Origin: a virus
IMG/VR virus record: IMGVR_UViG_3300031688_000066
Location: 1 to 33,789 of that record
Direction: 5' to 3' (one strand)
Length of the DNA stretch: 33,789 nucleotides
Shown: one piece after another, positions 4,616 to 32,443 of the stretch
How the letters are laid out: the number at the start of each line of letters is the position of its first letter
Numbering within the stretch: position 1 is the first letter of the stretch
Position numbers and translations under genes: made by a program
Notes under the pieces: model-generated
Seen by the model: only the letters and a program-made list of their open reading frames with translations
Databases searched by the model: none
What the model was told of the DNA's origin: nothing

Positions 4616-4646
4616 GTTATTGCCTTTTTTTATTGAGTAAGGTTAC

Positions 4647-4675
4647 ATTTTAGTTTATTTAAATAGTAATGTAAA
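4647..4675 (-). promoter_or_regulatory. Phage promoter, member 1 of a conserved family
   Basis: Minus strand TTTACA (4675-4670), 17 bp, TAAAAT (4652-4647). The flanks form an imperfect dyad: GGTTTACATT at the -35 side and AATGTAACC just after the -10. The transcribed leader continues GTAACCTTACTCAAT, then an A-rich stretch with AAAGG before the ATG at 4615. Closely matches the promoters at 5534, 9180 and 16170. Confidence 0.8.
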
Positions 4676-4928
4676 CCTTTCCGTAAATAAATAAATAATA
4701 GTTTTACTTTTTGGTTAAAATAATATTTAATGATAAAAGTATTCGGGCTAGAGCAGTTGTGAATTGACACAACCCTTAACAGGTGGCGAAATCCTTAAAT
4801 AATGCCATAGTCGCGGTTGACCCTCCGCACATAGCCTCACAGTTAAATCGGTTTTTATCTGTGAATAGTTTGGAAATACGATACGAATACTTATTAACCG
4901 CGGAGCTGTTTATCCCTTCGATCTTAAA

Positions 4929-4957
4929 TTTACTATCCGTAGTAAAAGGGTTATAAC
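4929..4957 (+). promoter_or_regulatory. Putative early promoter for the nuclease gene at 5063
   Basis: TTTACT at 4929-4934, 17 bp spacer, TATAAC at 4952-4957. The -35 is the left arm of a perfect dyad, TTTACT-atccgt-AGTAAA (4929-4946), and the promoter at 9180 has the same dyad arms with a 4-base spacer. The gene start is about 105 bases downstream. It lacks the AATCAA leader element of the main family. Confidence 0.5.
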
Positions 4958-5062
4958 ATCTATTAAAAAGTTTCATTAAGTAAACAAAGAAAATAATAAG
5001 AAACATAATAAATAACCATTCAATAAAACAGGCGAGGTTTACCGAGCCATAGGAGCAACAAA

Positions 5063-5524
5063 ATGATTGCAATGAGAGAAACATCTAGTGATCGCTCACA
5101 TGAACAAAGACTTTTGGTAGCAATGGCTAGACGATTAAAGTGTCAATATAAACAATCACCTAACTTAAAAAAGTATAGGCTAGACGGTTGGTTTCATGAC
5201 GGTAAGGAACCCGACAGTCGCGGTAACATGATTGGTTGGGCTGAATGCAAATGGTATGGGGACGGTAAAAAAGCATTTTGTGCATTAAATGTTCCTAAAT
5301 ATATGGAAATGGTTCATTTGAGTCAAACCACAATGCTACCTTCTTATTTTATATTTAGAGAAGAAAAACGGGTTGGTTATATTGTTGTCCATGACGGCAT
5401 AATGCATAGGGCAAAGTTTAAAGTAGTGCAAACAGGTGGGACGGCTAAAGGGAGAACCCCAAACCCAGACGACATTGAACCTTTAATTATGTTTGAAAAA
5501 CAAGAAATTCAATGGGCTATATAA
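5063..5524 (+). CDS. PD-(D/E)XK-like nuclease
   Basis: A 153-residue protein with an AGGAG ribosome site seven bases before ATG. Candidate active-site residues are Glu14 in SHEQRL, Asp41 in RLDGW and Glu61-x-Lys63 in GWAECKWY, followed by strands; this spacing is what small PD-(D/E)XK nucleases and resolvases show. The end (IMFEKQEIQWAI) gives no further clue. It is the first plus-strand early gene, followed by its own 66-base gap with a promoter. A role in host DNA degradation, restriction-like attack or branch resolution is possible; only the nuclease-like motif is supported. Confidence 0.6.
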   Translation: MIAMRETSSDRSHEQRLLVAMARRLKCQYKQSPNLKKYRLDGWFHDGKEPDSRGNMIGWAECKWYGDGKKAFCALNVPKYMEMVHLSQTTMLPSYFIFREEKRVGYIVVHDGIMHRAKFKVVQTGGTAKGRTPNPDDIEPLIMFEKQEIQWAI

Positions 5525-5533
5525 ACGCAAAGG

Positions 5534-5562
5534 TTTACAGTCAATATTATATAAACTAGAAT
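5534..5562 (+). promoter_or_regulatory. Phage promoter, member 2 of the conserved family
   Basis: TTTACA (5534-5539), 17 bp, TAGAAT (5557-5562). Upstream AAAGG and downstream GTAACCTTAATCAA match the promoter at 4647 nearly base for base; AGGTTTACA and TGTAACCTT form the flanking dyad. The leader ends AAAAAAGGGTATTAAA before the ATG at 5591, so the AAAGGG ribosome site is part of the repeated unit. Confidence 0.85.
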
Positions 5563-5590
5563 GTAACCTTAATCAAAAAAGGGTATTAAA

Positions 5591-5980
5591 ATGCAATTAG
5601 TAACTGGCGACACATATCAAACCGTAGAAAGCGATGTTATAGCATGGCAACGCGCCTACCCCGCAGTTAATGTCCACCAAGAATTAGCCGCAATGGAATC
5701 TTGGCTTGACGCTAATCCATCTAGACGCAAAACCAAGGGCGGCATTAAACGCTTTATTAACTCTTGGTTATCACGCGCACAGAATCAAGGTGGCTCACCA
5801 ATGGCTAAGAGCTACAAAAAACCCGATAGCTTGCGTTCTAAGACGATAGAGATGCAGATGGGTGATGTTAGTTGGTTGCAGGGTGAAGAGCTTGAAATGA
5901 TGAAGAGCTATTATCTAATAAATCTTGGCTACTATTATGACGGTCAATTAAAAAACGCGCAGGGGGTGATTAATGGATAA
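5591..5980 (+). CDS. Orphan replication-protein C-terminal-type domain
   Basis: A 129-residue protein. The segment WQRAYPAVNVHQELAAMESW (about 19-38), followed by LDANPSRRKTKGGIKRFINS and WLSRAQ, is the element usually found at the C-terminus of phage O-like or primosomal replication proteins, where it is thought to contact the helicase-loading machinery. Here it is almost alone: there is no N-terminal DNA-binding winged helix. It follows a strong promoter. It may recruit host replicative helicase or primase; the window shows no helicase, primase or polymerase of its own. Domain memory is good, function is inferred. Confidence 0.65.
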   Translation: MQLVTGDTYQTVESDVIAWQRAYPAVNVHQELAAMESWLDANPSRRKTKGGIKRFINSWLSRAQNQGGSPMAKSYKKPDSLRSKTIEMQMGDVSWLQGEELEMMKSYYLINLGYYYDGQLKNAQGVING

Positions 5981-9160: not shown

Positions 9161-9179
9161 ACTATTTTGTGAGGAGGGG

Positions 9180-9208
9180 TTTACTTTTTAGTAAATAAGG
9201 TTTAAGAT
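9180..9208 (+). promoter_or_regulatory. Phage promoter, member 3 of the conserved family
   Basis: TTTACT (9180-9185), 17 bp, TAAGAT (9203-9208). The -35 is one arm of TTTACT-tttt-AGTAAA. The leader ATTTCAATCAATAAACAAAGGG and TATTAAA to the ATG at 9241 matches those of the promoters at 5534 and 16170. Restarts transcription after the ninG-like gene. Confidence 0.8.
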
Positions 9209-9240
9209 TACATTTCAATCAATAAACAAAGGGTATTAAA

Positions 9241-9468
9241 ATGAAAGAATACAACGGACATAGAAGTTACAACGCTTGGAACGTTTCATTATGGTTAAAC
9301 AACGATGAAGACCTTTACGCAGATTGGTATTGGATGCCTAAACACTTTTCATTAAAAAAAACTGTAAGCACATTGTTAGCTGTTTTACCTTCAAAAACCC
9401 CAGATGGTGCAGTTTACAACCGCCTTTCTGTTAAGTTAGCCATTGAAGATATGTGGGGTGACGCATGA
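9241..9468 (+). CDS. Small WNVSLW-type phage protein
   Basis: A 75-residue protein: YNGHRSYNAWNVSLWLNNDE at 4-23, then a tryptophan-rich stretch and a C-terminal helix. The 'W-N-V-x-L-W-x-x-N-D' motif occurs in a widespread family of short phage and plasmid proteins (I recall DUF7249) of unknown function. It has its own early-type promoter and AAAGGG ribosome site, so it is probably strongly made. Its stop overlaps the next ATG. Confidence 0.7.
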   Translation: MKEYNGHRSYNAWNVSLWLNNDEDLYADWYWMPKHFSLKKTVSTLLAVLPSKTPDGAVYNRLSVKLAIEDMWGDA

Positions 9469-10653: not shown

Positions 10654-11178
10654 ATGCTATCAATAAAATATAAATCCACAGGGGAACTTATCCCTTATAT
10701 TAACAATTCTCGAACCCATAGTGAGCAACAAGTACAACAAGTAGCCGCAAGCATTAAAGAATTTGGTTTTACAAACCCTATACTCATTGACGATGAAAGC
10801 GGTATTATAGCGGGACACGGTCGCTTACAGGCCGCGCAGTTGCTAAATCTTAATGAAGTGCCTACCATTACGTTAGAAGGGCTAACAGATGCGCAAAAAA
10901 AAGCGTACGTAATAGCTGACAACCAACTGGCATTAAATGCGGGGTGGGATATAGATTCCTTAAAGTTAGAGATTGAAAACCTGTCCGAACTTGATTTCGA
11001 TATTAGCCTGTTAGGGTTTGATGATGATTTGTTGCAATCAATATTAGATGCTAATTTTGAGCCTAACTTTGACCCAGCAACAGAGGAAGAACAAGGGCAG
11101 TTGGATGAGTTAGACCCTAAATGGGTTGATTGCCCTAAATGCGGCCATGAATTTGATCTAAGAGGCATAATAAAATGA
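10654..11178 (+). CDS. ParB/Srx-fold protein with C-terminal zinc knuckle
   Basis: A 174-residue protein. Residues 10-95 are a ParB-like nuclease/Srx domain: ELIPYINNSRTHSEQQVQQV, PILIDDESGIIAGHGRLQAA (with GHGR at 54-57) and an ADNQLALNAGW segment at 88-98. Residues 110-135 (LDFDISLLGFDDDLLQSIL) match the linker that in many phage proteins leads into an adenine methyltransferase domain. Here that domain is missing; the protein ends instead with DCPKCGHEFDLRG (Cys160, Cys163). The neighbours, an unknown 69-aa protein and a Mom-like protein, suggest a role in DNA modification. ParB-like domains often accompany base-modification genes; the exact activity (nuclease, NTPase or CTP binding) is unknown. 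Confidence 0.85.
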   Translation: MLSIKYKSTGELIPYINNSRTHSEQQVQQVAASIKEFGFTNPILIDDESGIIAGHGRLQAAQLLNLNEVPTITLEGLTDAQKKAYVIADNQLALNAGWDIDSLKLEIENLSELDFDISLLGFDDDLLQSILDANFEPNFDPATEEEQGQLDELDPKWVDCPKCGHEFDLRGIIK

Positions 11179-11384
11179 GCTTATCTTTCGAAGAAAAAAA
11201 TAAAAATATATTAAATAGGTTTGAATCAAATATCACAGGAACAAAGGTTAGAAAGTTTTCCTTCAAACTGGATGGTAGGCCTGTAACTATGATTGATGTC
11301 AACAATGCAAGCCTTGCAGATGCTAAAAGCTCATTATATTCACGATTTGGCCTTACTAGGGTAAGTGATATACATGCCCACTAA
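11175..11384 (+). CDS. Unknown 69-aa protein between ParB-like and Mom-like genes
   Basis: A small basic protein with a likely beta-hairpin core (KVRKFSFKLDGRPVTMIDV) and a helix (LADAKSSLYSRFG). No family recognised. It overlaps the ParB-like gene by four bases and the Mom-like gene by about 11, so it is embedded in that cassette and is probably made in proportion with both. A specificity or assembly factor for the modification is a reasonable guess only. Confidence 0.7.
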   Translation: MSLSFEEKNKNILNRFESNITGTKVRKFSFKLDGRPVTMIDVNNASLADAKSSLYSRFGLTRVSDIHAH

Positions 11385-12063
11385 CCTTAAACTTGATTGG
11401 GCCAGCTATGATGCCGCAAAATATGCTGTTGAGAACTGGCATTATAGTAAGTGCTTGCCTATGGGTAAGCTGGTAAAGGTTGGGGTTTGGGAGGATGATG
11501 TGTACATAGGCTGTGTAATCTACTCTAGGGGCACAGCAAAGGATTTAGGGACAAAGTACGGCCTTACACAGACAGAGTGTGTAGAGCTAACTAGGGTTGC
11601 TTTAAAGAGCCACAAAACGCCTGTTAGCAAAATACTTGCAATCAGCTTTAAGTTTTTAAAAAAATCAAACACTAAAATAAGGCTGATCGTTTCTTTTGCG
11701 GCAAGGTCTGAGAACCATCATGGTGGCATTTATCAAGCTACAAACTGGATTTATGCTGGTGAGTCAAATCCAAATGAGGATGCAATCTATAAGGGTAGGC
11801 GTATCCCAAATAGGACTCTTGGGGCAGTCAAGCAAAAATACAAGATGAGTACCAGTGAGCTACTTTCTAAGGGTATACTTTCAGATGTAAGAAGAATGAC
11901 TAAGCATAGATATTTGATGGCACTAGACAAGGAGATAAAAAAGCGCATACTGCCATTGTCAAAACCTTATCCAAAGCGTGCAAAAGAGCAGGAGCCAGAG
12001 AACCCCTCTGGTCTGGGCGGTGCAACTCCGACCTGTACGCTCCAATCAAGCAATGAGCTATGA
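11374..12063 (+). CDS. Mom-like DNA modification protein (GNAT-fold)
   Basis: A 229-residue protein from ATG 11374; a GTG at 11365 would add three residues and is closer to the AGGG. Features: NWHYSKCLPMGKLVKVGVWE near the N-terminus, YSRGTAKDLG, ECVELTRVAL, then the pair IRLIVSFAA and GGIYQATNWIYAG, followed by a helical and proline-rich tail. This order is that of phage Mu Mom, a GNAT-superfamily enzyme that converts adenine to N6-carbamoylmethyladenine and protects DNA from restriction. Located between ParB-like and terminase genes, so modification could be completed just before packaging. Homology is by motif recall; the modified base is not known. Confidence 0.75.
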   Translation: MPTNLKLDWASYDAAKYAVENWHYSKCLPMGKLVKVGVWEDDVYIGCVIYSRGTAKDLGTKYGLTQTECVELTRVALKSHKTPVSKILAISFKFLKKSNTKIRLIVSFAARSENHHGGIYQATNWIYAGESNPNEDAIYKGRRIPNRTLGAVKQKYKMSTSELLSKGILSDVRRMTKHRYLMALDKEIKKRILPLSKPYPKRAKEQEPENPSGLGGATPTCTLQSSNEL

Positions 12064-12440
12064 AGATAGGCAATCAGGGCGATGGTGGGGGTAGACCGAT
12101 AATTGAGTTTACGCCAGAGCAAATAACACAGCTTGAAGCATTAGCGGCTGTACTTACTAAAGGCCAGATCGCTGATTACTTTAGCATTTCCGAAACAACC
12201 TTGAGGGCTATCGAAGAAAGGCAGCCTGAAGTTTCTGACGCTTATAAAAAAGGAAGAGTTAGACAATGCGCTAGTATGGGGTCGAACCTTATACAATTAG
12301 CCAAAGCAGGCAATGTAGCGGCCAACATCTTCTATCTTAAAACGCAGGCTGGATGGCGAGAAGCAGAGCCGCCACCGCAAGAGATACCTGCCTTCAACAT
12401 CATAGTGGACAGTCGTGCAACTAACGCTCCCACAGAGTGA
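12060..12440 (+). CDS. terS: Terminase small subunit
   Basis: A 126-residue protein: a glycine-rich start, then EFTPEQITQLEALAAVLTKG and IADYFSISETTLRAIEER (HTH, about 38-55), a middle helix and FYLKTQAGWREAE at about 92-104. This is the pattern of HTH-type small terminases that recognise the packaging site and bring in the large subunit. It starts inside the Mom-like stop (ATGA) and its end overlaps the large-subunit GTG by 26 bases. Confidence 0.85.
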   Translation: MKIGNQGDGGGRPIIEFTPEQITQLEALAAVLTKGQIADYFSISETTLRAIEERQPEVSDAYKKGRVRQCASMGSNLIQLAKAGNVAANIFYLKTQAGWREAEPPPQEIPAFNIIVDSRATNAPTE

Positions 12441-13629
12441 AATACTCTTAAACCATTCACGTTTTAAAACGGTGGTTGCTGGGCGCAGGTTCGGCAAGAC
12501 TTTCCTATCCGTTAATATGATTTTAAAAGAAGCCGTTACAGGGGTAAACAAGAACTGTTGGTATGTTGCTCCTACTTACGGCTCTGCCAAAGAGATTGCT
12601 TGGGATATGCTAATACACACTATCCCGCCTGAATACGTTTCTAAGACCAATGAAAGCAGCCTAACGTTACGCCTTATCAATGGGTCTGTTATATCCTTAA
12701 AGGGCGCAGAGAAGCCGAATAACCTTAGAGGCAGAGCGTTAGACTTTTGCGTACTAGATGAATTTGCAGATATGAGGCCAGAGGCATGGTACGAGGTAAT
12801 TAGGCCAAGTTTAAGTGATCGTCAAGGCTCTGCCGTCTTTATTGGGACACCAAAAGGAAGGAATCACTTTTACGATTTGTGGGCTAAAGGAATTGATGGG
12901 GCTTATAATTGGTCTAGCTTTCAATACACGACAATACAAGGCGAGAACGTACCCGCAGAAGAAATAGATGCGGCTAAACAAGATTTAGACGAAAGGACAT
13001 TCAAGCAAGAGTATGAAGCGGCATTCGTAACCTATCAAGGGCTAATCTACTACGGGTTTAATAGAGAAGAGTCTGTATTGGCCTGTGACGATGATAATGG
13101 TACACTTCACATAGGGATGGATTTTAATTTAGATCCCATGTCAGCCGTTATCTGCATACGTAAAAGCGGGAAGCTGTATGCGGTAGACGAGATTGTCATG
13201 TATGGGTCTAACACTGACGAGATGGTTGCGGAAATAATAAGCCGCTATCCTCGACGCAGTATCATTATTTATCCAGACCCTGCATCAAGACAGCGTAAAA
13301 CAAGCGCAGGTGGTCGTACAGATTTGTCGATCTTACAAAACGCAGGATTTAGCGTTAAGGCGAAAAACTCACACGCATTGATCAGGGATAGAGTCAACGC
13401 AGTGAACAGTCGGTTGCTGTCTGGAGATGGTGAGCGGCATTTGTTTGTCAGCCCGAAATGCAAGCAAACTATTAAGAGTTTGGAACGACAAACGTACAAA
13501 GAGGGAACTAGCATTCCAAACAAAGATGATGGCTACGATCATATGAACGATGCGCTCGGCTATCTCGTGGAATATCTATTTCCTGTTCGCACTGAATACA
13601 CTACGCCACAACCACAAAGGTGGACTTGA
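12415..13629 (+). CDS. terL: Terminase large subunit
   Basis: A 404-residue packaging ATPase-nuclease starting with GTG. Walker A AGRRFGKT at 22-29, Walker B FCVLDEF at 111-117, coupling motif IGTPKG at 143-148. The C-terminal nuclease domain has MDFNLDP (Asp236), YPDPAS (Asp288) and DGYDHMNDALGY (Asp375, Asp379), the RNase-H-like metal site. The N-terminus starts with LTLPQSEIL, the usual adenine-binding Q motif region. Complete in length for the short siphovirus form. It pumps DNA into the prohead through the portal encoded next. Confidence 0.95.
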   Translation: MQLTLPQSEILLNHSRFKTVVAGRRFGKTFLSVNMILKEAVTGVNKNCWYVAPTYGSAKEIAWDMLIHTIPPEYVSKTNESSLTLRLINGSVISLKGAEKPNNLRGRALDFCVLDEFADMRPEAWYEVIRPSLSDRQGSAVFIGTPKGRNHFYDLWAKGIDGAYNWSSFQYTTIQGENVPAEEIDAAKQDLDERTFKQEYEAAFVTYQGLIYYGFNREESVLACDDDNGTLHIGMDFNLDPMSAVICIRKSGKLYAVDEIVMYGSNTDEMVAEIISRYPRRSIIIYPDPASRQRKTSAGGRTDLSILQNAGFSVKAKNSHALIRDRVNAVNSRLLSGDGERHLFVSPKCKQTIKSLERQTYKEGTSIPNKDDGYDHMNDALGYLVEYLFPVRTEYTTPQPQRWT

Positions 13630-15011
13630 TGAGATTGAACGCAGATACAACACACCCTGATTATGACAAATACGAAAGCCGATGGGAGTTTTATGTCAGA
13701 AGCTATCTGGGTGGGGCAGATTATTTTAATGGCGCATATCTAACGCGCTATATTTCAGAAACAAATGATGACTATGATCGAAGATTAGACCTTACGCCAG
13801 TGGATAACCACTGCAAAAACATAGTGCATATTTACTCTAGCTTCCTATGGCGTGTACCCCCGACTAGAGCGTATAACAGCGCGGCTAACAACGTTGCCCT
13901 TGAACCTTTTCTTGATGACTGTGACTTAGAAGGTCGTAGCTTTAATGCGTTTATGCGTGAGTGTCAGATATGGGCGAGCGTCTATGGTCATGTTTGGGTC
14001 ATGCTTGATAAGCCTAAATCTACAGCAGGAACAAAGGCAGAAGAGTTGGCGCAGGATATTCGACCTTATGTCACCATGTTCACCCCTGAGAATGTTCTGG
14101 ATTGGAATTGGGTTAGAACCCCTAGCGGGCGTTTTGAGCTTGATTACTTAAAGGTTAGGGAAAGCGTTATACGTGTTGACGAAACGACTACAGAGACGTA
14201 TTACAGGGTCTGGTACAAAGACAGAGTTGAGCTATGGCATTCGGTTAATGATTTAGACAAGCAAGTCGAAGTTGATGATAACGTGCTTGGTCGTATCCCT
14301 GCTGTATTTTTACCTGCTAATCGCAGTATAACAAGAGGCATTGGGCTTAGTGACATATCTGATGCTTCCTATATGCAAAGGGCTATCTACCAAGAGTTAT
14401 CAGAGATAGAACAGCTTATACGGATATCCAACCATCCCACGTTGGTTAAGTCGTTCGGCACAGACGCTTCAGCAGGAGCGGGTGCAATCATTAACCTGCC
14501 TGATGATATGGATGCTCAGTTAAAGCCTTACCAGTTACAGCCTAGCGGACAGAACTTAGATGCTGTCCGCGCATCGATAAGCGATAAGATTTCAGCTATT
14601 AACCGCATGAGTCACATGGGTGCTGTTAGAGGCACAGAAGCGATGACTATGAGCGGTGTGGCTATGCAGACTGAGTTCCAGATGCTTAATGCTAAACTTG
14701 CTGAGAAGGCTGATTTGCTAGAATTGGCTGAAGAACAAATATGGTTGTTGTTCTGTGATTGGCAAGATGTCACCCCAGACGTAGAAATATATTACCCAGA
14801 CGCGTTCGACCTTAGGGATTACGACAAAGAACTTATGTTCCTTCAGCAGTTAAGGGCTACAGGTGTTAAATCTGTAACTCTGGCGCAAGAGATTGACAAG
14901 AAGATTGCCGACTTACTGCTTGATGATGAAGACCTAGCCAAAGCCCACGTTGAAATAACGTCTGGTACTCAGGTGTTAGGCCAGTTTAATGATCAGGTAA
15001 TTGAAGAATAA
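13629..15011 (+). CDS. Portal protein (DUF4055-type)
   Basis: 460 residues from ATG 13629, which overlaps the terminase TGA by one base and has AAAGGTGG five bases upstream; an in-frame GTG at 13620 is less likely. Features include FLWRVPPTRAYNS, then VYGHVWVMLDKP, FTPENVLDWNW and PLSH-type region replaced by GIGLSDISDASYMQRAIYQE, all placed as in the DUF4055 group of phage portals. The dodecameric ring at the capsid vertex is the expected role. Order terS-terL-portal-minor head protein is standard. Confidence 0.85.
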   Translation: MRLNADTTHPDYDKYESRWEFYVRSYLGGADYFNGAYLTRYISETNDDYDRRLDLTPVDNHCKNIVHIYSSFLWRVPPTRAYNSAANNVALEPFLDDCDLEGRSFNAFMRECQIWASVYGHVWVMLDKPKSTAGTKAEELAQDIRPYVTMFTPENVLDWNWVRTPSGRFELDYLKVRESVIRVDETTTETYYRVWYKDRVELWHSVNDLDKQVEVDDNVLGRIPAVFLPANRSITRGIGLSDISDASYMQRAIYQELSEIEQLIRISNHPTLVKSFGTDASAGAGAIINLPDDMDAQLKPYQLQPSGQNLDAVRASISDKISAINRMSHMGAVRGTEAMTMSGVAMQTEFQMLNAKLAEKADLLELAEEQIWLLFCDWQDVTPDVEIYYPDAFDLRDYDKELMFLQQLRATGVKSVTLAQEIDKKIADLLLDDEDLAKAHVEITSGTQVLGQFNDQVIEE

Positions 15012-15013
15012 TA

Positions 15014-15763
15014 ATGGCAGTTGATACTGACCAACTAAAGGATGTCATTGCTAGGGCTGAAGCACACCAAGCCAAGCTCGTTTTGGCGCTTGCAAAGCTA
15101 GAGAGAAGGATAGTTGATTACCTAGCCACGGCACCCCTTAAAGACGGCATCTTGTTTGATTTAGAATGGGCTATCCAAGCTAGATCGGAACTACGGAAAC
15201 TGATCGAAGAAGAGTACTTAACAACCATTGATGGCTTTGTACGCGAATACAAGGCCGTTGCAGGTGAGGTTGCGACAATGCTTGCTACCTATGGGGACTT
15301 TGCAAAGCTCGACCCTAATGTGGTTGCTCAATTGCAAAACCTTAGCTTTAGAGGCTTTGAGAACTTAGGTCAAGAGTATCTGGATATTATTGCCAAGCAG
15401 GTGTATGAGAGCACCCTAACTGGTCAGACATTCGCAGTTGGTGTTGCAAGCATACAGCAAGCCGTTAGCGGTGATATGGCTAGGTACGCAAGCCAACAAC
15501 TACACGATTCTCTTTTGCAGTTCGATAGGTCAATCAACACCCGAATAGCTCTGGATAGTGGTGCAACCAAGTTTACATACCGTGGCCCAGATGACAGCGC
15601 AACGAGAGAGTTCTGTGCTAGGCACGTAAACAAGACGTATACGATAGATGAGATCGAAGAGATATGGCAAGGCAGTTGGGGCGGTAAGATAGACTCCAAT
15701 GCTTTTGTTTCAGCGGGCGGCTACAATTGCCGTCATAGATGGCGACCAATAATAGAGGACTAG
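15014..15763 (+). CDS. Minor head protein (SPP1 gp7/Mu F-like)
   Basis: A 249-residue protein. N-terminal 150 residues are helical (KLVLALAKLERRIVDYLATA onward), and the C-terminal 80 carry the head-morphogenesis signature: FTYRGPDDSATREFCARHVN, then a cysteine/arginine end GGYNCRHRWRPI. This is the Phage_Mu_F/SPP1 gp7 domain (PF04233), usually a few copies inside the head, bound to portal. It begins two bases after the portal stop. Confidence 0.85.
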   Translation: MAVDTDQLKDVIARAEAHQAKLVLALAKLERRIVDYLATAPLKDGILFDLEWAIQARSELRKLIEEEYLTTIDGFVREYKAVAGEVATMLATYGDFAKLDPNVVAQLQNLSFRGFENLGQEYLDIIAKQVYESTLTGQTFAVGVASIQQAVSGDMARYASQQLHDSLLQFDRSINTRIALDSGATKFTYRGPDDSATREFCARHVNKTYTIDEIEEIWQGSWGGKIDSNAFVSAGGYNCRHRWRPIIED

Positions 15764-15766
15764 ATC

Positions 15767-15835
15767 ATGCCAAAAGGCAAAGGAACATACGGTAGTAAAG
15801 TAGGCCGACCCAAGAAGAAAAAACCAAAGAAGTAG
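15767..15835 (+). CDS. 22-aa basic MPKGKGTYG peptide
   Basis: ATG at 15767 with AGAGGA eight bases upstream; encodes MPKGKGTYGSKVGRPKKKKP plus KK, then TAG. I recognise very similar short basic peptides (MP-x-KGTYG-x-x-x-GRPKK) encoded beside head genes in many phages; their function is unknown, possibly a DNA-binding or capsid peptide. It ends immediately before a hairpin. Confidence 0.65.
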   Translation: MPKGKGTYGSKVGRPKKKKPKK

Positions 15836-15848
15836 CCCCCGAAGGGGC
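15835..15848. terminator. GC hairpin between convergent genes, likely bidirectional terminator
   Basis: GCCCC-CGAA-GGGGC on the plus strand, which reads GCCCC-UUCG-GGGGC on the minus strand, a very stable UUCG tetraloop. It lies just after the 22-aa gene (plus) and ten bases after the stop of the minus gene at 15858. Neither side has an immediate long U run; a T6 follows further on in the minus direction. Confidence 0.6.
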
Positions 15849-15857
15849 GGTTGGTTA

Positions 15858-16136
15858 TTAATCGTTACAGCCGTACAATGGGTGGTCAGTAGGTAGCCAA
15901 AGGGTATATATTAAGTGTCCACCGTCAACCTCTTCCTCGTAAAATCTGCATTCATCATTAGTCAATAAACTACCTATAGTTCCCTCTGCACTTTTAACGT
16001 CCCATCCATTATTTGCAAGCATCGTTATCATTTCTGCCATAGAAAAGTAATCGTGATCTCCAAAGTCTGAGTGAGCTTCTATGGAGCTATTGAATACTGA
16101 TAAAGCCGCTAATTGATTATTAGTTAAGTTAGACAT
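15858..16136 (-). CDS. Minus-strand moron-like gene, winged-helix-like
   Basis: A 92-residue protein encoded opposite to all surrounding head genes. FSMAEMITMLANNGWDVKS then AEGTIGSLLTNDECRFYEEE and HLIYTLWLP look like a winged helix: helix, recognition helix and beta wing. It has its own early-type promoter (16170-16198) and leader with AAAGG, and a hairpin after its stop, so it is a self-contained unit of the kind called a moron. Function unknown; a regulator acting on late genes, or host-directed, are possibilities. Confidence 0.7.
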   Translation of the reverse strand: MSNLTNNQLAALSVFNSSIEAHSDFGDHDYFSMAEMITMLANNGWDVKSAEGTIGSLLTNDECRFYEEEVDGGHLIYTLWLPTDHPLYGCND

Positions 16137-16169
16137 AATTTATTACCTTTATTTATTGATTGAGATTAC

Positions 16170-16198
16170 ATCTTACACCCTATAAACATAAATGTAAA
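16170..16198 (-). promoter_or_regulatory. Phage promoter, member 4 of the conserved family
   Basis: Minus strand TTTACA (16198-16193), 17 bp, TAAGAT (16175-16170), then GTAATCTCAATCAATAAA, AAAGG and the ATG at 16136. Same leader as the early promoters at 4647, 5534 and 9180, with TTTACAT upstream and ATGTAAT downstream of the spacer as half-sites. Confidence 0.8.
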
Positions 16199-16223
16199 CA
16201 CTTATGAGGTAAATAATTACGGT

Positions 16224-16252
16224 TTTTGTAAATTAATTTAATGTGCTACAAT
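16224..16252 (+). promoter_or_regulatory. Putative promoter of the capsid/tail operon
   Basis: TACAAT at 16247-16252 preceded directly by TGC, an extended -10, with a weak TTTTGT 17 bp upstream (16224-16229). The scaffold ATG is 35 bases further on. It lacks the early-family leader, so it may be a separate late class. It is back to back with the minus promoter at 16170-16198. Confidence 0.5.
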
Positions 16253-16286
16253 CCAGACTCACCAACACTCTTTAAGAGGCCGCGAC

Positions 16287-16940
16287 ATGAGCGAAGAAAA
16301 CATGGAATCTGAAATTGAAGCTAATGCAGTTGAGAATCAGGTAGCAAAGACATTTACACAAGATGAATTAGATCGAATCGTAGCTGACCGCATATCTAGA
16401 GAACAGCGCAAGTTTGACAAGAAACTGTCAGGCATTGACCTGAATGAAGCAAGAGATTTGTTGGCTGAAAAACAAGCCGCAGATATTGAGCGACAGAAAG
16501 AGCGCGGAGAGTTTGATTCAATTCTAAAACAGACTGTCGAAAAGAAAGACATGGAGATACAGAGTTATAAAAGCAAGTTACAACAGACGCTAGTAGACGG
16601 AGCGATTCTGGGTGCGGCTTCTAACAATAACGCTGTTAATCCAACTCAAGTATCACAGTTGCTGAAAGACCAGACCAGACTGTCGGAAGATGGAACGGTT
16701 GAAGTTCTGGACGCTAACAAAGTACCGCGCTACAATGACAGCGGTGAATTGTTATCCGTTAATGAAATGGTAGCTGAATTCTTGACAGTAAACCCACATA
16801 TGGTCAAAGCCTCACAAGGCGGTATTGGCTCGATGGGTAACACTGGTGGCTCTACACAGAAGCCTCAATCTGTGGCAGATATGGTTGCAAACTGGAATGA
16901 TGGTGGCAAAGAAGCATTTGCCGCATCTAAGAAAAAGTAA
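16287..16940 (+). CDS. Capsid scaffold protein
   Basis: A 217-residue, highly charged and helical protein: acidic start, FTQDELDRIVADRISREQRK, then long coiled-coil stretch to about residue 110, a GAASNNNAVNP turn and a Gly/Ser-rich end. This is the GP20/DUF4355-like scaffold pattern and it sits directly before the major capsid gene, as expected. It would be removed or excluded from mature capsids. AAGAGG ribosome site eight bases upstream. Confidence 0.8.
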   Translation: MSEENMESEIEANAVENQVAKTFTQDELDRIVADRISREQRKFDKKLSGIDLNEARDLLAEKQAADIERQKERGEFDSILKQTVEKKDMEIQSYKSKLQQTLVDGAILGAASNNNAVNPTQVSQLLKDQTRLSEDGTVEVLDANKVPRYNDSGELLSVNEMVAEFLTVNPHMVKASQGGIGSMGNTGGSTQKPQSVADMVANWNDGGKEAFAASKKK

Positions 16941-16979
16941 CCACTAACCACAAACTAATTTTAATTTAAGGTATTTATC

Positions 16980-17813
16980 ATGGCGGCAACAACTTCAACA
17001 ACTCTCGACGACCTGTTCGTCAATATCGTAGCTCAAGCACGTTTCACTGCTGAAGAGCAATCACTCATGCTTGGCCTAGTTACTATGTACAACATTCAGG
17101 CTCAAGCGGGCAAGACAATTCAGGTTCCTAAGTACCCTGCTATTTCAGCGGCTAACTTGACTGAAGGCACTGACATGTCTAGCACCACTGTTTCTACTTC
17201 TTCAGTTTCTGTAACTGTTGGCGAAGTAGGCGCACAGGTTCTATTAACTGACATGGCTACTTACGGTGACGGCAACCCTGCTGTTGAGTTAGGTACTGTT
17301 CTAGGTAACGCTATCGCTACCAAGATCGACACTGACTTAATCGCTTTGTTTGACGGCTTCTCTGGTTCTATCGGAGCCGCAGGTGCTGAGATCACTGTAG
17401 CTGACTTATTTAAAGCGGCCGCAACTCTACGCGCTAACAAGGTTACTGGCGTTATTAACGCTGTTGTACACCCTTTCCAAGCGTACCAGTTGAAAGCTAA
17501 CCTAACTAACACCTTCGCTAACCCGAACGGTGGCGATTCGCAGAACGAAGCGATGCGTACTGGTTATGTTGGAACTATTGCGGGCATCAATGTCTACGAG
17601 TCAGCTAACGTAGCTATTGACGGTTCTGGAGATGCTAAGGGCGCTGTATTCGCTCCTGAAGCTATTATGATCGCTATGAAGCGTGACTTTAACATTGCGC
17701 CACAACGTGATGAGTCTCTCCGAGCATTCGAGCTTAACGCCACTGCTGTATATGGTGTTGCAGAGCTTGATGATTCGTTCGGAATTGAGCTTCTTTCTGA
17801 CGCGGTACTGTAA
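16980..17813 (+). CDS. Major capsid protein (HK97-fold expected)
   Basis: A 277-residue protein: N-arm with TTSTTLDDLFVNIVAQARFT, then TIQVPKYPAISAANLTEGTD, a spine helix VELGTVLGNAIATKIDTDLI, the domain ITVADLFKAAATLRANKVTG and near the end the FNIAPQRDESLRAFELNATA stretch followed by the C-terminal strand. These are the hallmarks of small HK97-type coat proteins. No protease gene is near and no long N-terminal delta domain is present; a separate scaffold protein is used instead. Followed at once by a strong terminator, consistent with very high expression. Confidence 0.88.
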   Translation: MAATTSTTLDDLFVNIVAQARFTAEEQSLMLGLVTMYNIQAQAGKTIQVPKYPAISAANLTEGTDMSSTTVSTSSVSVTVGEVGAQVLLTDMATYGDGNPAVELGTVLGNAIATKIDTDLIALFDGFSGSIGAAGAEITVADLFKAAATLRANKVTGVINAVVHPFQAYQLKANLTNTFANPNGGDSQNEAMRTGYVGTIAGINVYESANVAIDGSGDAKGAVFAPEAIMIAMKRDFNIAPQRDESLRAFELNATAVYGVAELDDSFGIELLSDAVL

Positions 17814-17820
17814 GACTATA

Positions 17821-17848
17821 CCCACCTCTTTCGGGGGGTGGGTTTTTT
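17821..17848 (+). terminator. Terminator after the major capsid gene
   Basis: CCCACC (17821-17826) pairs with GGTGGG (17837-17842), extended by weaker inner pairs, and six T follow (17843-17848). No promoter is seen before the next gene at 17862, so it probably acts partially, reducing tail and connector gene transcription relative to capsid. Confidence 0.75.
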
Positions 17849-17861
17849 ACTGAGGTAAGTA

Positions 17862-18272
17862 ATGGCATATTCTAGCGATGCAGATTTATTAAAACTGATT
17901 CCCGATATTCTCGATCTAGGTATCGATTCTTTTTTATTGGAGCATTCAAAAGCAGAAACTGATATTCAGCGCGAGTTGCGTATTAAATGGTGGCCTAGAA
18001 AGAACATATCAGGCGAGATGGATAACACCAAGCTAACCGCTACCCAGTTCACGACTGTCAGTGCTTACTTAGTGCTGTGGCGTTATGCTTTACCCCAGTT
18101 GACTAACTGGACAGAGGGCGATAGGTTCGGCAATATGATCGAATTTTACAAGGCTCGTTATGGCGAAGAGCTTGAATCAGTGTTAGCTGATGGCGTTGAT
18201 TATGATGCTGATGGTGATGGGAACGTAAAAGAAGATGAGAAGCAACCTGTAGGACTGAGGTTAGACAGGTAA
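17862..18272 (+). CDS. Head-tail connector (gp6-like)
   Basis: A 136-residue helical protein directly after the capsid gene, in the usual connector position. YSSDADLLKLIPDILDLGID at the start, a middle TQFTTVSAYLVLWRYALPQL and a late KARYGEELESVL are typical of head completion/adaptor proteins. The C-terminal region is acidic (DYDADGDGNVKEDE). Overlaps the next gene by one base (TAATG). GAGGT ribosome site. Confidence 0.65.
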   Translation: MAYSSDADLLKLIPDILDLGIDSFLLEHSKAETDIQRELRIKWWPRKNISGEMDNTKLTATQFTTVSAYLVLWRYALPQLTNWTEGDRFGNMIEFYKARYGEELESVLADGVDYDADGDGNVKEDEKQPVGLRLDR

Positions 18273-18691
18273 TGGAAGTAGAGTTAGGCCACGATGCGAT
18301 AGATGTTTCCAAAAGAATTGGAAAGAAAGGCATAGAGCTTAAAGCAAGCGTCAAAAAGGCTTTGTTGAAGACTGCTTTGCAAGGCATCAACATCATTGAA
18401 GATAGGACTAAAAAAGGTAGAGGGCTTAAAGGCTTTTTCCCTAGATACAGCCCAAAGTATCTTGCCTTTCGTGCAAGCAAGGGTCGTGGAAAAAATGTGG
18501 ATTTGCAATTCACTGGCCTGATGTTAGGTAGTATTACTGCTGTGGCAACAAGTAACTATGCGGAGATTTACTTTTCGCGTGGTGAAGAAGCTAAGAAGGC
18601 GGCAATGGTAAGTAAGAAAAGACCGTTTTTTGGTTTCAGCAGACGAGAGAAAAAGCAATTAGGCGAGATATTCTTTAAGGCACTAAAATGA
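18272..18691 (+). CDS. Tail completion/neck protein (gp10-like)
   Basis: A 139-residue basic protein. Order (connector, this protein, tail terminator, major tail protein), length and the pattern of a long N-terminal helix, a central segment GFFPRYSPKYLAFRASKGRG and LQFTGLMLGSITAV near residues 78-91 fit HK97 gp10/head closure or virion morphogenesis proteins. It would join connector to tail. The tail motif FTGLMLGSI matches the 'L-x-x-TG-x-L-x-x-S' of that family. Overlaps its neighbours. Confidence 0.65.
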   Translation: MEVELGHDAIDVSKRIGKKGIELKASVKKALLKTALQGINIIEDRTKKGRGLKGFFPRYSPKYLAFRASKGRGKNVDLQFTGLMLGSITAVATSNYAEIYFSRGEEAKKAAMVSKKRPFFGFSRREKKQLGEIFFKALK

Positions 18692-19122
18692 GCGTAAGAG
18701 AAAGCATTGCAAACAACTTAGTCGATACACTACAAGCGGTGATAACGCCAGTAGACATAAAATATGTTACTCGCGAGCCGTTCGATTTTGCCAAGTTATC
18801 AAGCGCACAATTTCCTGCTATCCTTGTGCGTAGTGCAGGAGAGGATAGAGCAGACAGTAGCATAGGCGGGTCAATCACTCAGCGTATGGCTACAATAAAT
18901 TATGAGCTTATCTGCTATGTTAAAGGGTCGGTAATCGATTCGGCTAGGAACAACATAATAGAGGCTATAGAAGAGGGTCTTGATGTAGATCGTTTGCGTG
19001 GGGGTTTTGCCCTAGATACGCAGATGACTCAGATCGAGATCGATGAAGGTTCTATTGATCCCATTGGTGGGGTCATTATTACAGTACGCGTTTTGTATCA
19101 ATACACTCGCGGCACAACTTAA
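18688..19122 (+). CDS. Tail terminator protein
   Basis: A 144-residue protein with mixed strands: MSVRESIANNLVDTLQAV, FPAILVRSAGE, MATINYELICYVKG, and a C-terminal IIITVRVLYQYTRGT-like strand. The fold and position, just before the major tail protein, are those of gpU-like tail terminators that cap the tube at the head end. Recognition is by context and strand pattern. Starts in the stop of its neighbour (ATGA). Confidence 0.65.
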   Translation: MSVRESIANNLVDTLQAVITPVDIKYVTREPFDFAKLSSAQFPAILVRSAGEDRADSSIGGSITQRMATINYELICYVKGSVIDSARNNIIEAIEEGLDVDRLRGGFALDTQMTQIEIDEGSIDPIGGVIITVRVLYQYTRGTT

Positions 19123-19143
19123 CTTAAATTAGAGGTAAATATC

Positions 19144-19545
19144 ATGGCGACTAAAACAGGCGCATCTGGAGTGGTAAAAGTACAAGTCTCAGGCACGACT
19201 GTTGCCGTGGTAGGCGAAGTACGTTCTTTCACTTTTGACGGTTCAGCGGACACTATTGAAAACTCAGTGATGGGTGACGTTGCACGATCGTACAAAGAAG
19301 GCTTAAAAACTAACACCGTATCAATCGAGTGCTACTGGGATGAAGCGGATGCACAGCAACTAATCCTTGATGAGCGAGCTTCTGTTGATTTTGAAATCTA
19401 TCCCACTGGTACTGGCACTGGCGAAACTTTCTTTTCTGGTGGCGGCATTGTAACTTCACGTTCAATCAGTGGCGCATTTGATGGAATGGTCGAAGCCAGT
19501 TTCTCTATTCAGTGCAGTGGCGCTGTAACTGAAGCACAAGTATAA
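19144..19545 (+). CDS. Major tail (tube) protein
   Basis: A 133-residue, beta-rich protein. KTGASGVVKVQVSGTTVAVV, RSFTFDGSADTIENSVMGD, SIECYWDEADAQQLILDERA and a final SGAFDGMVEASFSIQCSGAV follow the tail-tube proteins of the lambda gpV/TP901-1 type. It is immediately before the gpG/gpGT chaperone genes and has an AGAGGT ribosome site. Polymerises into the tube through which DNA passes. Confidence 0.82.
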   Translation: MATKTGASGVVKVQVSGTTVAVVGEVRSFTFDGSADTIENSVMGDVARSYKEGLKTNTVSIECYWDEADAQQLILDERASVDFEIYPTGTGTGETFFSGGGIVTSRSISGAFDGMVEASFSIQCSGAVTEAQV

Positions 19546-19558
19546 AGGGGATTAAACC

Positions 19559-19906
19559 ATGGGATTAGCTAAAGAGTTACGAGGAAGGAGAAAGGTAGAA
19601 GCAAGAGAAGTTCTTGTTCCTGCATGGGGTGACGATTCTGGAGCGTTTAAGTTGTATTGTAGGCCAATAACCTGCTATGACCTAGACCAGTTGCAGAAGA
19701 AGCACCCTAACTTTTTAAACAACACTACAATCGGTGCTATGGTTGACTTGATTTGCATGAAGGCAGTAGATGAAAGCGGTGATAAACTGTTTACATCTGG
19801 CGAAGATCGTATTGATTTGATGGGTGAAGAGACCAATGTGATTTCTGAAATAGCAAATCAAATGTTTGCAGACATTGAAACAGCAGAGGCGCTTGAGGGA
19901 AACTAA
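19559..19906 (+). CDS. Tail assembly chaperone gpG-like (unshifted product)
   Basis: A 115-residue protein ending GDKLFTSGEDRIDLMGEE and EALEGN. Size, position between tube protein and tape measure, and the slippery sequence immediately before its stop make it the gpG-like chaperone that coats the tape measure during tail assembly. A fraction of ribosomes shift -1 to make the longer gpGT-like protein. Nearly the whole reading frame before the stop is shared. Confidence 0.82.
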   Translation: MGLAKELRGRRKVEAREVLVPAWGDDSGAFKLYCRPITCYDLDQLQKKHPNFLNNTTIGAMVDLICMKAVDESGDKLFTSGEDRIDLMGEETNVISEIANQMFADIETAEALEGN

Positions 19907-20046
19907 AAAGCGATCAGTCAAGGATGAACCTGCTTTCCTTGGCTGACCGCCTTCACATTACAATAGAAGAAGCAGAAGATATGCCGTTAAACCATTTTCA
20001 CGAATGGATGGCCTACTTTAGAATAAAGAGCGAATCTAATGGCTGA
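19559..20046 (+). CDS. Tail assembly chaperone gpGT-like, made by -1 frameshift
   Basis: From 19559 to the slippery GGGAAAC at 19897-19903, then -1 through CTA AAA AGC GAT to a TGA at 20044-20046; about 162 residues. The added part (LKSDQSRMNLLSLADRLHIT, then EEAEDMPLNHFHEWMAYFRIK) has the EW-x-AY ending typical of gpT domains. In lambda the GT fusion links chaperone to tape measure and tube protein. No credible separate start is needed for the second part, though an ATG at 19924 is in frame. It overlaps the tape measure start by eight bases. Confidence 0.85.
19897..19943 (+). other. -1 frameshift signal: slippery site and stem
   Basis: G GGA AAC in the zero frame at 19897-19903, directly followed by TAA. 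Both A-site and P-site tRNAs can re-pair as GGG AAA. A stem GTCAAGGA (19917-19924) with TCCTTGGC (19936-19943), one G-U pair and 11-base loop, begins 13 bases after the heptamer and could slow ribosomes. Lambda uses the related GGGAAAG at the same gene pair. Confidence 0.85.
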
Positions 20047-30147: not shown

Positions 30148-32148
30148 ATGGCTATTAAATTAGGCGGAGGCGGGGGCGGAGCTAACATCCCGTATAAAGG
30201 TTCAACAGCAGAGGTAGCTTATTCACCAGTAATTGAAGGCTCATATTACAAACTCAATACAAGCGGAAAATTAATTGCTGATACGCCTGTAATAGCTAAG
30301 ACTTCACAAATAGACCAAAATGTTTTGAGTCAAACAAATAATGGCACTACAGGTAGTAAGGATGCTATCCCTTTTGATAATGGTGCTAAATTTGAAGGGC
30401 TAATGCCGAATGGAAATATTTTATACCTATTTAGTAGATATCAAAATAACACCTATCAGTCCATTGATTATGTTGTTGTTGACTCAGGAGGGTCTCAACT
30501 GTCTTATGTGGTGGGTATTCCTGCAGATAATACGTATATGGTTTCACCTAAATACCGACTAGAGTATCAAGGTGAAGATAGTACTTATTACATATTTACC
30601 GCGTTTACATATGGCTCTAACTCGAACATTTCCTACGGGACATCGAGAGGGTACACTGTAAAGGTAAGAAAATCTGATAATGCTATAACAAGAACTGCCA
30701 ACAGCGATTTAGTTTACACCTTTAACAGTACAACCAAAAATTATGCTGTCCGCGTATATGGTGGCGAATTAACTTTTGCGCGAGACAAGTCGATATATTG
30801 TGCGGTTGCAATAAATACAGTAGCGTCTTCTTCAAGTATGACTTTAGAACTAACAACAGGGACAGTCAACAGCGCATACGCCCAATCAAATGTAGGCACA
30901 ACTGCTATTGCTAGTGTTTATAAGAGTACGAATATTCAATTAATAAAATATGATGATTCAAGTGCTAATTTCTTGTTGGCTTATCAAACTGCTACAGGCA
31001 ATAGCACTACAGGATATGTAGTTAAAAAGGTTTTAGTTGCCGCTGATGGCACACATACAGTCACAGATATTACACCTTCTGGGTTCTCGCAAGGCACTGG
31101 AGCTTCTCAGATACGTAGCGACTATGTTCGGTTTTTAAAGTCTGAACAGACTGGTAAATATCTTTTGTCAGCGATTACAGGTTACACCGAAGCAAGATAC
31201 TACAAAGTATCGTATGACGGTTCGTCTTTAACATTAGGCTCTTTGCAAAAATATAATACAACTGGAGATTATTTATTTAGAGGTACTGCTGTTAACTTTC
31301 ATAATGGCAACTATAGCAATTCGTTTCTTTACAGATATGCAGAAGATAAACTGTACGTAGGTTCTCGCGCTACTCGCAGTGAGTGGTCGAACTATCAAAA
31401 AGGAGCAGTCTGGACTTTAGGCTCTGGAAATGTTCAGGGAACAGCCGTAAAAACAGACGCTTTTGATTCGTTCTCAACCGAAAGCTCTACTACTGGCAGT
31501 ATAATATCTATAAACTCTGACGGGCTTATTACTGAAAGAATCAGCCTCGCTGACTCCTACGTAGTGGGCCTGACCAGTCAGGTTTGGGATGTTTCTTCTA
31601 AAACGCAAGATAAAATAGCTTATGTGCGTCAGTCTGGAGCAGTGGGCGCTACAGTAAATATTTCCTTAATTGAAGGCGTAACATCAAGCGAAACATTGCC
31701 TTCGGAATATTGGTTCAACAAAGAAGATATGTATTATGAGTATAGTAATGCAGTAGTTAATCCTCCTGCCTTTAGCTATTTCAAACCAGTAGCTTATTTA
31801 TTTTCTACAATTACTCACGGTACAATAAATGCCGTAGTTTTAGGACAAGATGCGTTCACCGTAACTGCCCCAGCAGGCCAGTATTTAAAGATAGAATCTT
31901 ATTATGGAAGTAGTGCACGGAAAGTGGGACTCAAAATTGATGGGACTATTTTTGCTGAATACACTGGTGCGTCTAATACTGTAGGCGCTATTTCTACTCA
32001 GAAAACTATTCTGAATGGCAATTCTTCAGGAGGGCCATCAATGTCCGCACCAATAGTTTGCAAAGAATTTAGTATTTATAGAACTGATCAAAACTCTACA
32101 TCATCAGCCTCTTTTTATATTAGCTATTCGATAGGAGAACCCGCATGA
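30148..32148 (+). CDS. Tail fibre / receptor-binding protein
   Basis: A 666-residue protein with a Gly-rich N-terminus (KLGGGGGGANIPYKGSTAEV), then about 500 residues of beta-rich sequence dominated by Tyr, Ser, Asn and Thr, with a possible beta-propeller-like periodicity (FSRYQNN, FTAFTYGSN, LLAYQTATG) and a C-terminal domain. The upstream GGAGGGAG serves as ribosome site. Its TGA overlaps the ATG of chaperone copy 2. The last genes and their variability in phages make it the best candidate to bind the host surface; no catalytic motif seen. Confidence 0.7.
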   Translation: MAIKLGGGGGGANIPYKGSTAEVAYSPVIEGSYYKLNTSGKLIADTPVIAKTSQIDQNVLSQTNNGTTGSKDAIPFDNGAKFEGLMPNGNILYLFSRYQNNTYQSIDYVVVDSGGSQLSYVVGIPADNTYMVSPKYRLEYQGEDSTYYIFTAFTYGSNSNISYGTSRGYTVKVRKSDNAITRTANSDLVYTFNSTTKNYAVRVYGGELTFARDKSIYCAVAINTVASSSSMTLELTTGTVNSAYAQSNVGTTAIASVYKSTNIQLIKYDDSSANFLLAYQTATGNSTTGYVVKKVLVAADGTHTVTDITPSGFSQGTGASQIRSDYVRFLKSEQTGKYLLSAITGYTEARYYKVSYDGSSLTLGSLQKYNTTGDYLFRGTAVNFHNGNYSNSFLYRYAEDKLYVGSRATRSEWSNYQKGAVWTLGSGNVQGTAVKTDAFDSFSTESSTTGSIISINSDGLITERISLADSYVVGLTSQVWDVSSKTQDKIAYVRQSGAVGATVNISLIEGVTSSETLPSEYWFNKEDMYYEYSNAVVNPPAFSYFKPVAYLFSTITHGTINAVVLGQDAFTVTAPAGQYLKIESYYGSSARKVGLKIDGTIFAEYTGASNTVGAISTQKTILNGNSSGGPSMSAPIVCKEFSIYRTDQNSTSSASFYISYSIGEPA

Positions 32149-32443
32149 TTATTACACAATCTTTAGTTGATGGCGTTTGGGTTACTCAAGAGCCAACAGA
32201 CGGACAAGCGTACAGAAAGTTATTAGATGGCTTTGCGTTTGAAACAAGTACATATTTTAGCGTACCTGTCGAGGACGAAGCTCGTATGTGGCGCGACGAT
32301 GAACTAGACGCTACTGACAAAGCCGCACAAACGCCTGACTGGCCTAATCGCGACAACATCCTAGCATACAGGATTGCATTGCGTGATTGGCCTAGCACTG
32401 AAGACTTCCCAGACACTCGCCCAGAATTAGGAGAATAAAATGG
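32142..32443 (+). repeat. Long direct repeat, copy 2
   Basis: Counterpart of bases 1-302. Identity stops right after the ATGG of the next gene, where copy 2 leads into the tailspike and copy 1 into the lysis cassette. It stands between the fibre and the tailspike and would let homologous recombination exchange or delete what lies between copies in a circular or concatemeric genome. Confidence 0.95.
32145..32438 (+). CDS. Tail fibre assembly chaperone, copy 2
   Basis: Same 97-residue family as the first gene of the window, with the same W-R-D-D-E-L and YRIALRDWP motifs. Relative to copy 1 it has V for A at residue 42, N for K at 72 and D for S at 87. It begins inside the stop of the fibre gene (ATGA), a common fibre-chaperone pairing, and is followed after one A by the tailspike ATG. 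It probably helps either the fibre before it or the spike after it. Confidence 0.8.
   Translation: MIITQSLVDGVWVTQEPTDGQAYRKLLDGFAFETSTYFSVPVEDEARMWRDDELDATDKAAQTPDWPNRDNILAYRIALRDWPSTEDFPDTRPELGE

Follow-up and report, generated by a model that had tools for sequence, protein, structure and literature searches.

The closest described counterparts of the locus reported here are the PeSLs of T4-like myoviruses (Arbiol 2010; Comeau 2014), promoter/stem-loop motifs that were proposed, in the accessible portions of the relevant reports (PMC4503421, PMC3950731), to be mediators of shuffling. One of these sources, in the part dealing with the haloarchaeal myovirus HGTV-1, also describes a promoter-like motif and an inverted repeat before many small ORFs and suggests that they aid shuffling (PMC3950731). 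Two further kinds of element are relevant, again according to the accessible portions of the accounts: the morons of lambdoid phages, which are ORFs with their own promoter and terminator (PMC1524935), and the ESAS/SAS repeats of cluster K mycobacteriophages, an intergenic promoter motif of ~46-50 bp (PMC3203893, PMC11373665). Relaxed recombination by Rad52-like phage recombinases is the subject, in its accessible part, of a separate report (PMC3945230). How phages acquire and trade small early genes that may act on their hosts is poorly understood, and a search of the literature on PeSLs and on promoter/stem-loop shuffling in pelagiphages, with subscription journals mostly uncovered, found no account of the system described below. 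The stretch of DNA analyzed here (the window) is the 33,789-base virus record IMGVR_UViG_3300031688_000066, from a small marine phage, and it contains a minus-strand transcription unit opposite its head genes. We propose that this unit is probably an exchangeable early-gene cassette that occupies, in antisense orientation, an accessory slot within the head operon; it looks like a swappable cargo bay, not like a switch controlling the shell genes.

The existence of a complete unit (promoter, leader, gene and hairpin with a UUCG loop) had been put forward in an earlier note on this DNA, and the ORF, a recurring promoter element and the hairpin could all be located. The cargo gene, denoted here as wh92, is a 92-aa ORF (15858-16136, minus strand) encoding a predicted acidic winged helix. 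It is preceded by a promoter and leader element (16203-16138, minus strand) composed of TTTACA (16198-16193), a 17-nt spacer, TAAGAT (16175-16170) and then GTAATCTCAATCAATAAATAAAGG, the leader ending in AAAGG. The cassette ends with a GCCCC-UUCG-GGGGC hairpin (15848-15835, minus strand), and it does so, as had been noticed, against a 22-aa gene: a basic micro-ORF (MPKGKGTYGSKVGRPKKKKPKK) located after the minor head gene (15767-15835, plus strand), the last base of whose TAG stop is overlapped by the hairpin. Of 81 distinct slot sequences, 70 contain a micro-ORF of this type. The divergent plus-strand promoter that had been placed close to the early one is also present: the spacer and the late-type promoter of the scaffold gene span 16204-16252 (plus strand), with TTGTAA at 16226-16231, TG at 16244-16245 and TACAAT at 16247-16252, and 27 bp separate its -35 box from the early -35. 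Rfam and tRNA scans of the window gave no match. A 300-nt duplication, 98% identical and with a 97-aa ORF in each copy, occupies 1-300 and 32142-32441, and no exact terminal redundancy was found in the window record.

Hexamer consensus alone returned six promoter-like sites in the window, compared to 7.9 +/- 3.1 in shuffled sequences; a promoter call on this basis, not being above chance, was rejected, and a repeat-based element was used instead. A first IUPAC pattern for the element, with mismatches allowed, gave no match. The repeat search showed that the ~60-nt promoter and leader preceding the 92-aa ORF recurs ahead of three other genes in the window. A profile search of the window yielded exactly four copies (E from 1.3e-14 to 4e-8, the next best being 5.3), and a model made from 26 elements, with the window sequence excluded, gave four matches clearly separated from the next (0.1). 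With nhmmer, the head-slot element scored E 1.3e-14 (1.2e-15 with the window-free model). The remaining copies are found at 4680-4617 (minus strand; E 1e-9, window-free 7e-8), before a 131-aa ORF and the ERF/YqaJ operon (the pL slot); at 9176-9242 (plus strand; E 1.2e-8, window-free 3e-7), before a DUF7249 ORF (9241-9468) and after a gene that we take, by eye, to be HNH-like (the post-HNH slot); and at 5529-5586 (plus strand; E 4.1e-8, window-free 3.5e-7), before an ORF at 5591-5980. It is on account of this repetition and conservation, and not of the hexamer consensus, that the promoter was taken as real. Likewise, since the same promoter stands ahead of the recombination operon, where Pfam identifies ERF (5.8e-25) and YqaJ (4e-26) downstream of the 4617-4680 element, the promoter family would be of the early type, in agreement with the earlier note. 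Across 202 sequences, 78 element matches were obtained at E<1e-3, and the element is common to six occupied head slots; three isolate genomes with related portals showed none (best E 1.5, with 31251 of the 32480 bases of HTVC026P covered). The elements, for example that at 4617-4680, also hold an imperfect inverted repeat, GGTTTACAT ... ATGTAACC, around the -35 and the -10, which the Cro/C1-type HTH protein encoded at 2271-2468 might use as an operator.

Relatives were fetched by MCP (80 kept of 458 confirmed loci), minor head protein (70 loci), L173-type scaffold protein (80 kept of 245) and promoter pattern (38 stretches). The slot survey comprised 284 sequences, of which 213 hold both neighbours in the same orientation and represent 102 distinct slot sequences; loci without either neighbour (71 of 284) or with oppositely oriented neighbours were left out of the counts. 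The interval between the minor head and scaffold genes was short (<260 nt) and devoid of the element in 81 of the 102 distinct sequences, while seven contained an antisense cassette with the element. The other 14 were longer slots without the element, mostly with plus-strand genes after the minor head gene, and include those of L194, L095 (whose scaffold match is probably truncated) and the isolate HTVC026P. The promoter-pattern search favours occupied slots, and, among loci coming from the three protein searches only, a cassette was present in four of 96 distinct slots, each time with a different cargo. As judged from these loci, the head-operon site is an accessory slot that is empty in most relatives and that elsewhere holds unrelated genes between the same promoter flank and hairpin. 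L194, whose capsid protein is 79% identical, carries in its head slot an antisense winged-helix gene 47% identical to that of the window, with a different promoter (no element match) and closer, by eye, to the versions found in the post-HNH slot; this implies either two or more acquisitions of a winged-helix gene by the slot or a replacement of the promoter. Two additional observations concern the neighbouring minor head gene. The protein (window 15014-15763) is often only 36-64% identical among relatives, while the portal is ~80-95% and the capsid 93-100% identical, and it looks as if this gene were exchanged as a block. In addition, several loci (L021-L024, L058, L074, L082 and L170) have extra plus-strand ORFs after it with HEYGHHxD or HEFGHxxH sequences, metallopeptidase-like by eye.

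The first cargo in the seven occupied head slots is one of five different genes, namely wh92 (92 aa; the window and two near-identical contigs), MAGTGK (79 aa; L010), MKTYIG (65 aa; L155), MNYLKW (82 aa; L173) and MEYKVG (52 aa; L174, and also L170 and L172), and yet the upstream flank, the start of the promoter and the hairpin are common to these slots. Three more genes follow MEYKVG in L170 and L172, with hairpins between some of them, and in L170 the promoter is found only before the first. The comparison with individual relatives delimits the replaced segment: L010 matches the window with 98.5% identity over 15464-15852 and 97.7% from 16156 onward, an unrelated 79-aa gene filling the interval; with L177 (contig 3300031601_000093), the two flanks are 97.9% and 94.8% identical; and with L029, identity is 95.5% up to 15834 and 96.8% from 16259, with no gene in between. 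In the opposite sense, L174 and L170 share a cargo 98.1% identical, whereas their portal, minor head gene and a 72-nt piece of the scaffold gene are 70.6-75.0% identical. Nine pairs were compared for this contrast between cargo and backbone, and it was seen in two (L174/L170 and L163/L181, described below). Controls, pairs from the same slot and distant homologues make up the remaining seven, which either lack the contrast or have no core genes in common. Away from the head operon, the window has an extra DUF7249 gene (9241-9468) between the post-HNH element and a 52-aa MNKYS gene when compared with L175 and L029, which align with it up to 9251 and again from 9465.

The cargo genes are not confined to one site. 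A total of 49 distinct element units were collected, 47 of them with a closed ORF, and these ORFs fell into 21 cargo families, four of which occur in more than one slot. The clustering (blastp, E<=1e-3, single linkage) may have joined genes that are not related, MSNLDNK with NTWLIN and MTNLEQ with MTDFNY; for these two families, the presence in several slots is argued from MTDFNY in L163/L181 and from NTWLIN in L156/L185/L183, the starts of which match by eye. From their sequences, the same gene families are present in the other two early-promoter slots of the phage. The winged-helix family was found in all three: in the head slot of the window, in the pL slot of L004, ahead of the ERF operon, and in the post-HNH slot of L074, L189, L190, L195 and L198. 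The MTDFNY gene, which occupies the pL slot in L163 and the post-HNH slot in L181, is 92.5% identical between both, whereas the exonuclease reaches 67.9% and YqaJ 71.9%. Identity is also high (91.4%) over a 162-nt piece of ERF, so that exchange in this case may be broader than the cargo alone. Among the tested cargo proteins, that of ORF 9241 gave the sole significant family match (DUF7249/phrog_871), and family searches with six others returned nothing significant.

A slot-identity test was carried out on the elements themselves, keeping 33 distinct ones of the 49 and dropping those without a TTTAC[AT]-17-hexamer match or an assignable slot. The 25 nt upstream of the -35 proved to be slot-specific (similarity 0.60 within and 0.47 between slots; 0 of 500 label shuffles), and this was not the case for the spacer (155/500 shuffles), the -10 (80/500) or the leader (475/500). 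The between-slot similarity of the leader is inflated, because the loci fetched by pattern were selected for a conserved leader, whereas the spacer was free. A flank that is specific to the slot followed by a sequence that, from the spacer onward, is not, is the pattern to be expected if crossovers take place at the promoter or inside it. The idea that particular right halves of the promoter are tied to particular cargoes was dropped, as the MEYKVG cargo has, by eye, two different ones.

These observations could be integrated in a model in which each cassette would consist of the promoter and leader, one or a few small ORFs and a UUCG-type hairpin, and would be exchanged by recombination between co-infecting phages at the promoter/leader and hairpin stretches, which offer ~15-60 nt of near-identity. 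We infer recombination from the identity contrasts described above; the annealing protein (ERF) and the exonuclease (YqaJ) that the phage itself encodes would probably assist it. The cargo would then be made early, together with the replication and recombination genes and independently of the surrounding late genes, and the cargo proteins, including the acidic winged helix, would contact host or defence proteins instead of regulating the head promoter. This action by protein-protein contact is the least certain part of the proposal. The hairpin may terminate transcription, protect the transcript or merely mark an end. It lacks a U-tract directly after it, the T-rich stretch beyond being the antisense of the Lys codons of the 22-aa gene, and it folds moderately better than shuffled sequences (z -1.9; 13 of 200 shuffles fold equally well). 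All six distinct head-slot units have this hairpin core after their first cargo gene. Considering all slots, a hairpin lies <=70 nt from the stop codon in 25 of the 47 cargo units and is absent, by the pattern used, from 22; for this reason, the two-ended exchange model suits the head slot better than the others.

The rival that survives best, although we regard it as improbable, is that the unit is an ordinary moron, a self-contained transcription unit inserted once, by an illegitimate event, without any underlying exchange system. This would account for a promoter and a hairpin of its own between conserved genes, for its being missing in relatives and for the GC content of the gene (38.4%, versus 41.9% for the window). 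However, the same promoter and leader stand at three other sites in the genome, both ends persist when the cargo is replaced, and the same genes appear in other slots; all this weakens the notion of a one-off insertion, which does not predict it.

The possibility that the 92-aa protein is an early DNA-binding regulator of the 16137-16286 region, timing or repressing the scaffold/capsid promoter, is in our opinion quite unlikely. It derives from the earlier suggestion that the gene may influence the divergent late promoter, and it is favoured by the short distance between the two -35 boxes, by the conservation of the divergent spacer in six occupied slots and by the winged-helix prediction itself. 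Indeed, the winged-helix look attributed to the protein was borne out by modelling. An AF2 model based on 13 sequences (mean pLDDT 70.7, pTM 0.62) predicts helices at 6-22, 33-42 and 47-58 and strands at 64-70 and 74-80, the H-H-H-E-E order of a winged helix. Foldseek gave no PDB or BFVD match at E<=1e-3 with this model, and structural realignment gave neighbours that are largely winged helices, all with Z<8 (best 7.7, middling by the tool's own notes); those at Z 6.5-7.7 include the winged-helix domains of MukF, KAT6A, ORC2, SarX, MecI and BlaI, as well as YceH, and the structural neighbours thus comprise regulators such as MecI, BlaI, Fur and SlyA, a further point in favour of a regulatory role. 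We consider the predicted fold likely. However, the protein contains two K/R versus 15 D/E residues (net charge -13), and the 13 family members examined are all acidic (net -5 to -14). This strong acidity argues against DNA binding, which appears unlikely on the basis of whole-protein charge, as distinct from a computed surface; by the same measure, the basic surface or recognition helix expected of a regulator was not found.

Sequence searches did not assign the protein to a family. Pfam gave no match up to E 5, PHROG a single weak one (E 0.25, to one PHROG of unknown function), and no usable family emerged from Pfam, PHROG and PDB sequence searches taken together. Using the protein and two homologues, tblastn against 50,697 phage records found no match; a genome contig scan with a two-sequence alignment returned 26 pattern stretches, none of them confirmed, and megablast of window positions 11000-20000 against phages also gave no match. 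The head region of an unrelated phage (L005) contains two tandem distant homologues of ~30% identity (4711-4983 and 5041-5352), located between a minor-head-like ORF and a protease/capsid-like pair (labels by eye).

The behaviour of the scaffold promoter in relatives also counts against a regulatory role. Full-length upstream regions with a recognised start were considered (52 distinct), and a TGnTAnAnT extended -10 precedes the scaffold gene in 43 of them, with or without a cassette, compared to a mean of 0.6 and a maximum of 3 in shuffles; among the nine regions that lack it, several come close to the motif (TATGATAAAAT, for example). A divergent spacer of the same kind stands in six occupied slots ahead of five different first cargo genes, and the promoter type is retained even though most slots carry no cassette. 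Furthermore, the winged-helix gene of L004, L074 and other relatives is distant from all late promoters. What the earlier note had named as grounds for giving up the idea, a gene absent or variable in relatives with late control unchanged, is what was found: in close relatives the gene is missing or replaced by unrelated genes and the extended -10 is kept. The 92-aa gene is thus not a conserved regulator of late genes.

An assembly artefact was also contemplated, in which metagenome assemblers, misled by the 60-nt repeats, would have attached a wrong gene to the slot. The phages bearing the element are, in fact, IMG/VR contigs, mostly metagenomic, and the element is lacking in the three isolate genomes mentioned above. 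Nevertheless, the arrangement of the window is reproduced by IMGVR_UViG_3300031589_000169 on both flanks and by 3300031628_000601 on the minor-head side, the hairpin-side flank falls outside the repeated element, and the swapped cargo ORFs are intact, so we give this explanation very little credit. Finally, it is hardly credible that the function resides in an antisense transcript over the junction of the 22-aa and minor head genes and not in a protein, as the antisense position and the hairpin overlapping a stop codon might suggest, given that the 92-aa ORF is under purifying selection (dN/dS 0.10 versus the 76% identical L004 homologue; dS 1.52, dN 0.153), the other cargoes are also intact ORFs and the same gene is sense-oriented in other slots.

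Returning to the exchangeable cassette, a wider and more tentative notion, to which we give somewhat less than even weight, is that a group of small marine phages runs a dedicated exchange system for small early genes, probably directed against the host or its defences. Each genome would have three to four promoter-ended slots fed from one pool, one slot would be maintained in antisense orientation within the head operon, a place in which the loss or swap of cargo would be harmless to the early operons, and crossovers at or within the promoter would keep the upstream flank and bring core, leader and gene from the donor. Near-identical phages that differ at defined slots put both the ends and the cargo pool in hand. 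They also provide a mining route, since scanning for the promoter element and taking the next ORF would produce a list of candidate host-acting proteins. The proposal would add small marine phages to the T4-like phages and the archaeal virus for which promoter/stem-loop shuffling has been suggested.

When set against the accessible portions of the reports on known systems, the cassette resembles a moron in being a self-contained ORF with a promoter and a terminator-like hairpin between genes that adjoin in relatives, as the empty site of L029 illustrates; the hairpin of the cassette has no direct U-tract. It differs in that its promoter is shared with the phage's own early operon, in that the cargo is exchanged in place and in that homologues occupy the early slots of related phages behind the same promoter. 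With ESAS it has in common a promoter motif repeated several times per genome ahead of small genes, but ESAS stays with given gene phamilies across genomes, whereas here genes move between elements. HGTV-1 offers an example of PeSL-like motifs outside the T4-like phages, although in an archaeal virus whose genome was then the largest described among archaeal viruses (PMC3950731). The likeness to PeSLs lies in repeated motifs, an early promoter and a stem-loop, flanking small variable ORFs for which shuffling between related phages has been proposed: there are several ectopic copies of an early-type promoter in the genome, four in this case, and variable ORFs appear to be exchanged between related phages at the motif. 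In contrast, the composite PeSL motif has stem-loop and promoter together between ORFs, whereas in the window the cargo stands between the two, and one of the slots of the four elements is antisense inside the head operon. Moreover, PeSLs belong to T4-like myovirus genomes, and the window is a 33.8-kb record with a pelagiphage-like portal (~51% identical to that of Pelagibacter phage HTVC026P). For this last reason, the cassette can be considered to work like a PeSL without being filed as one.
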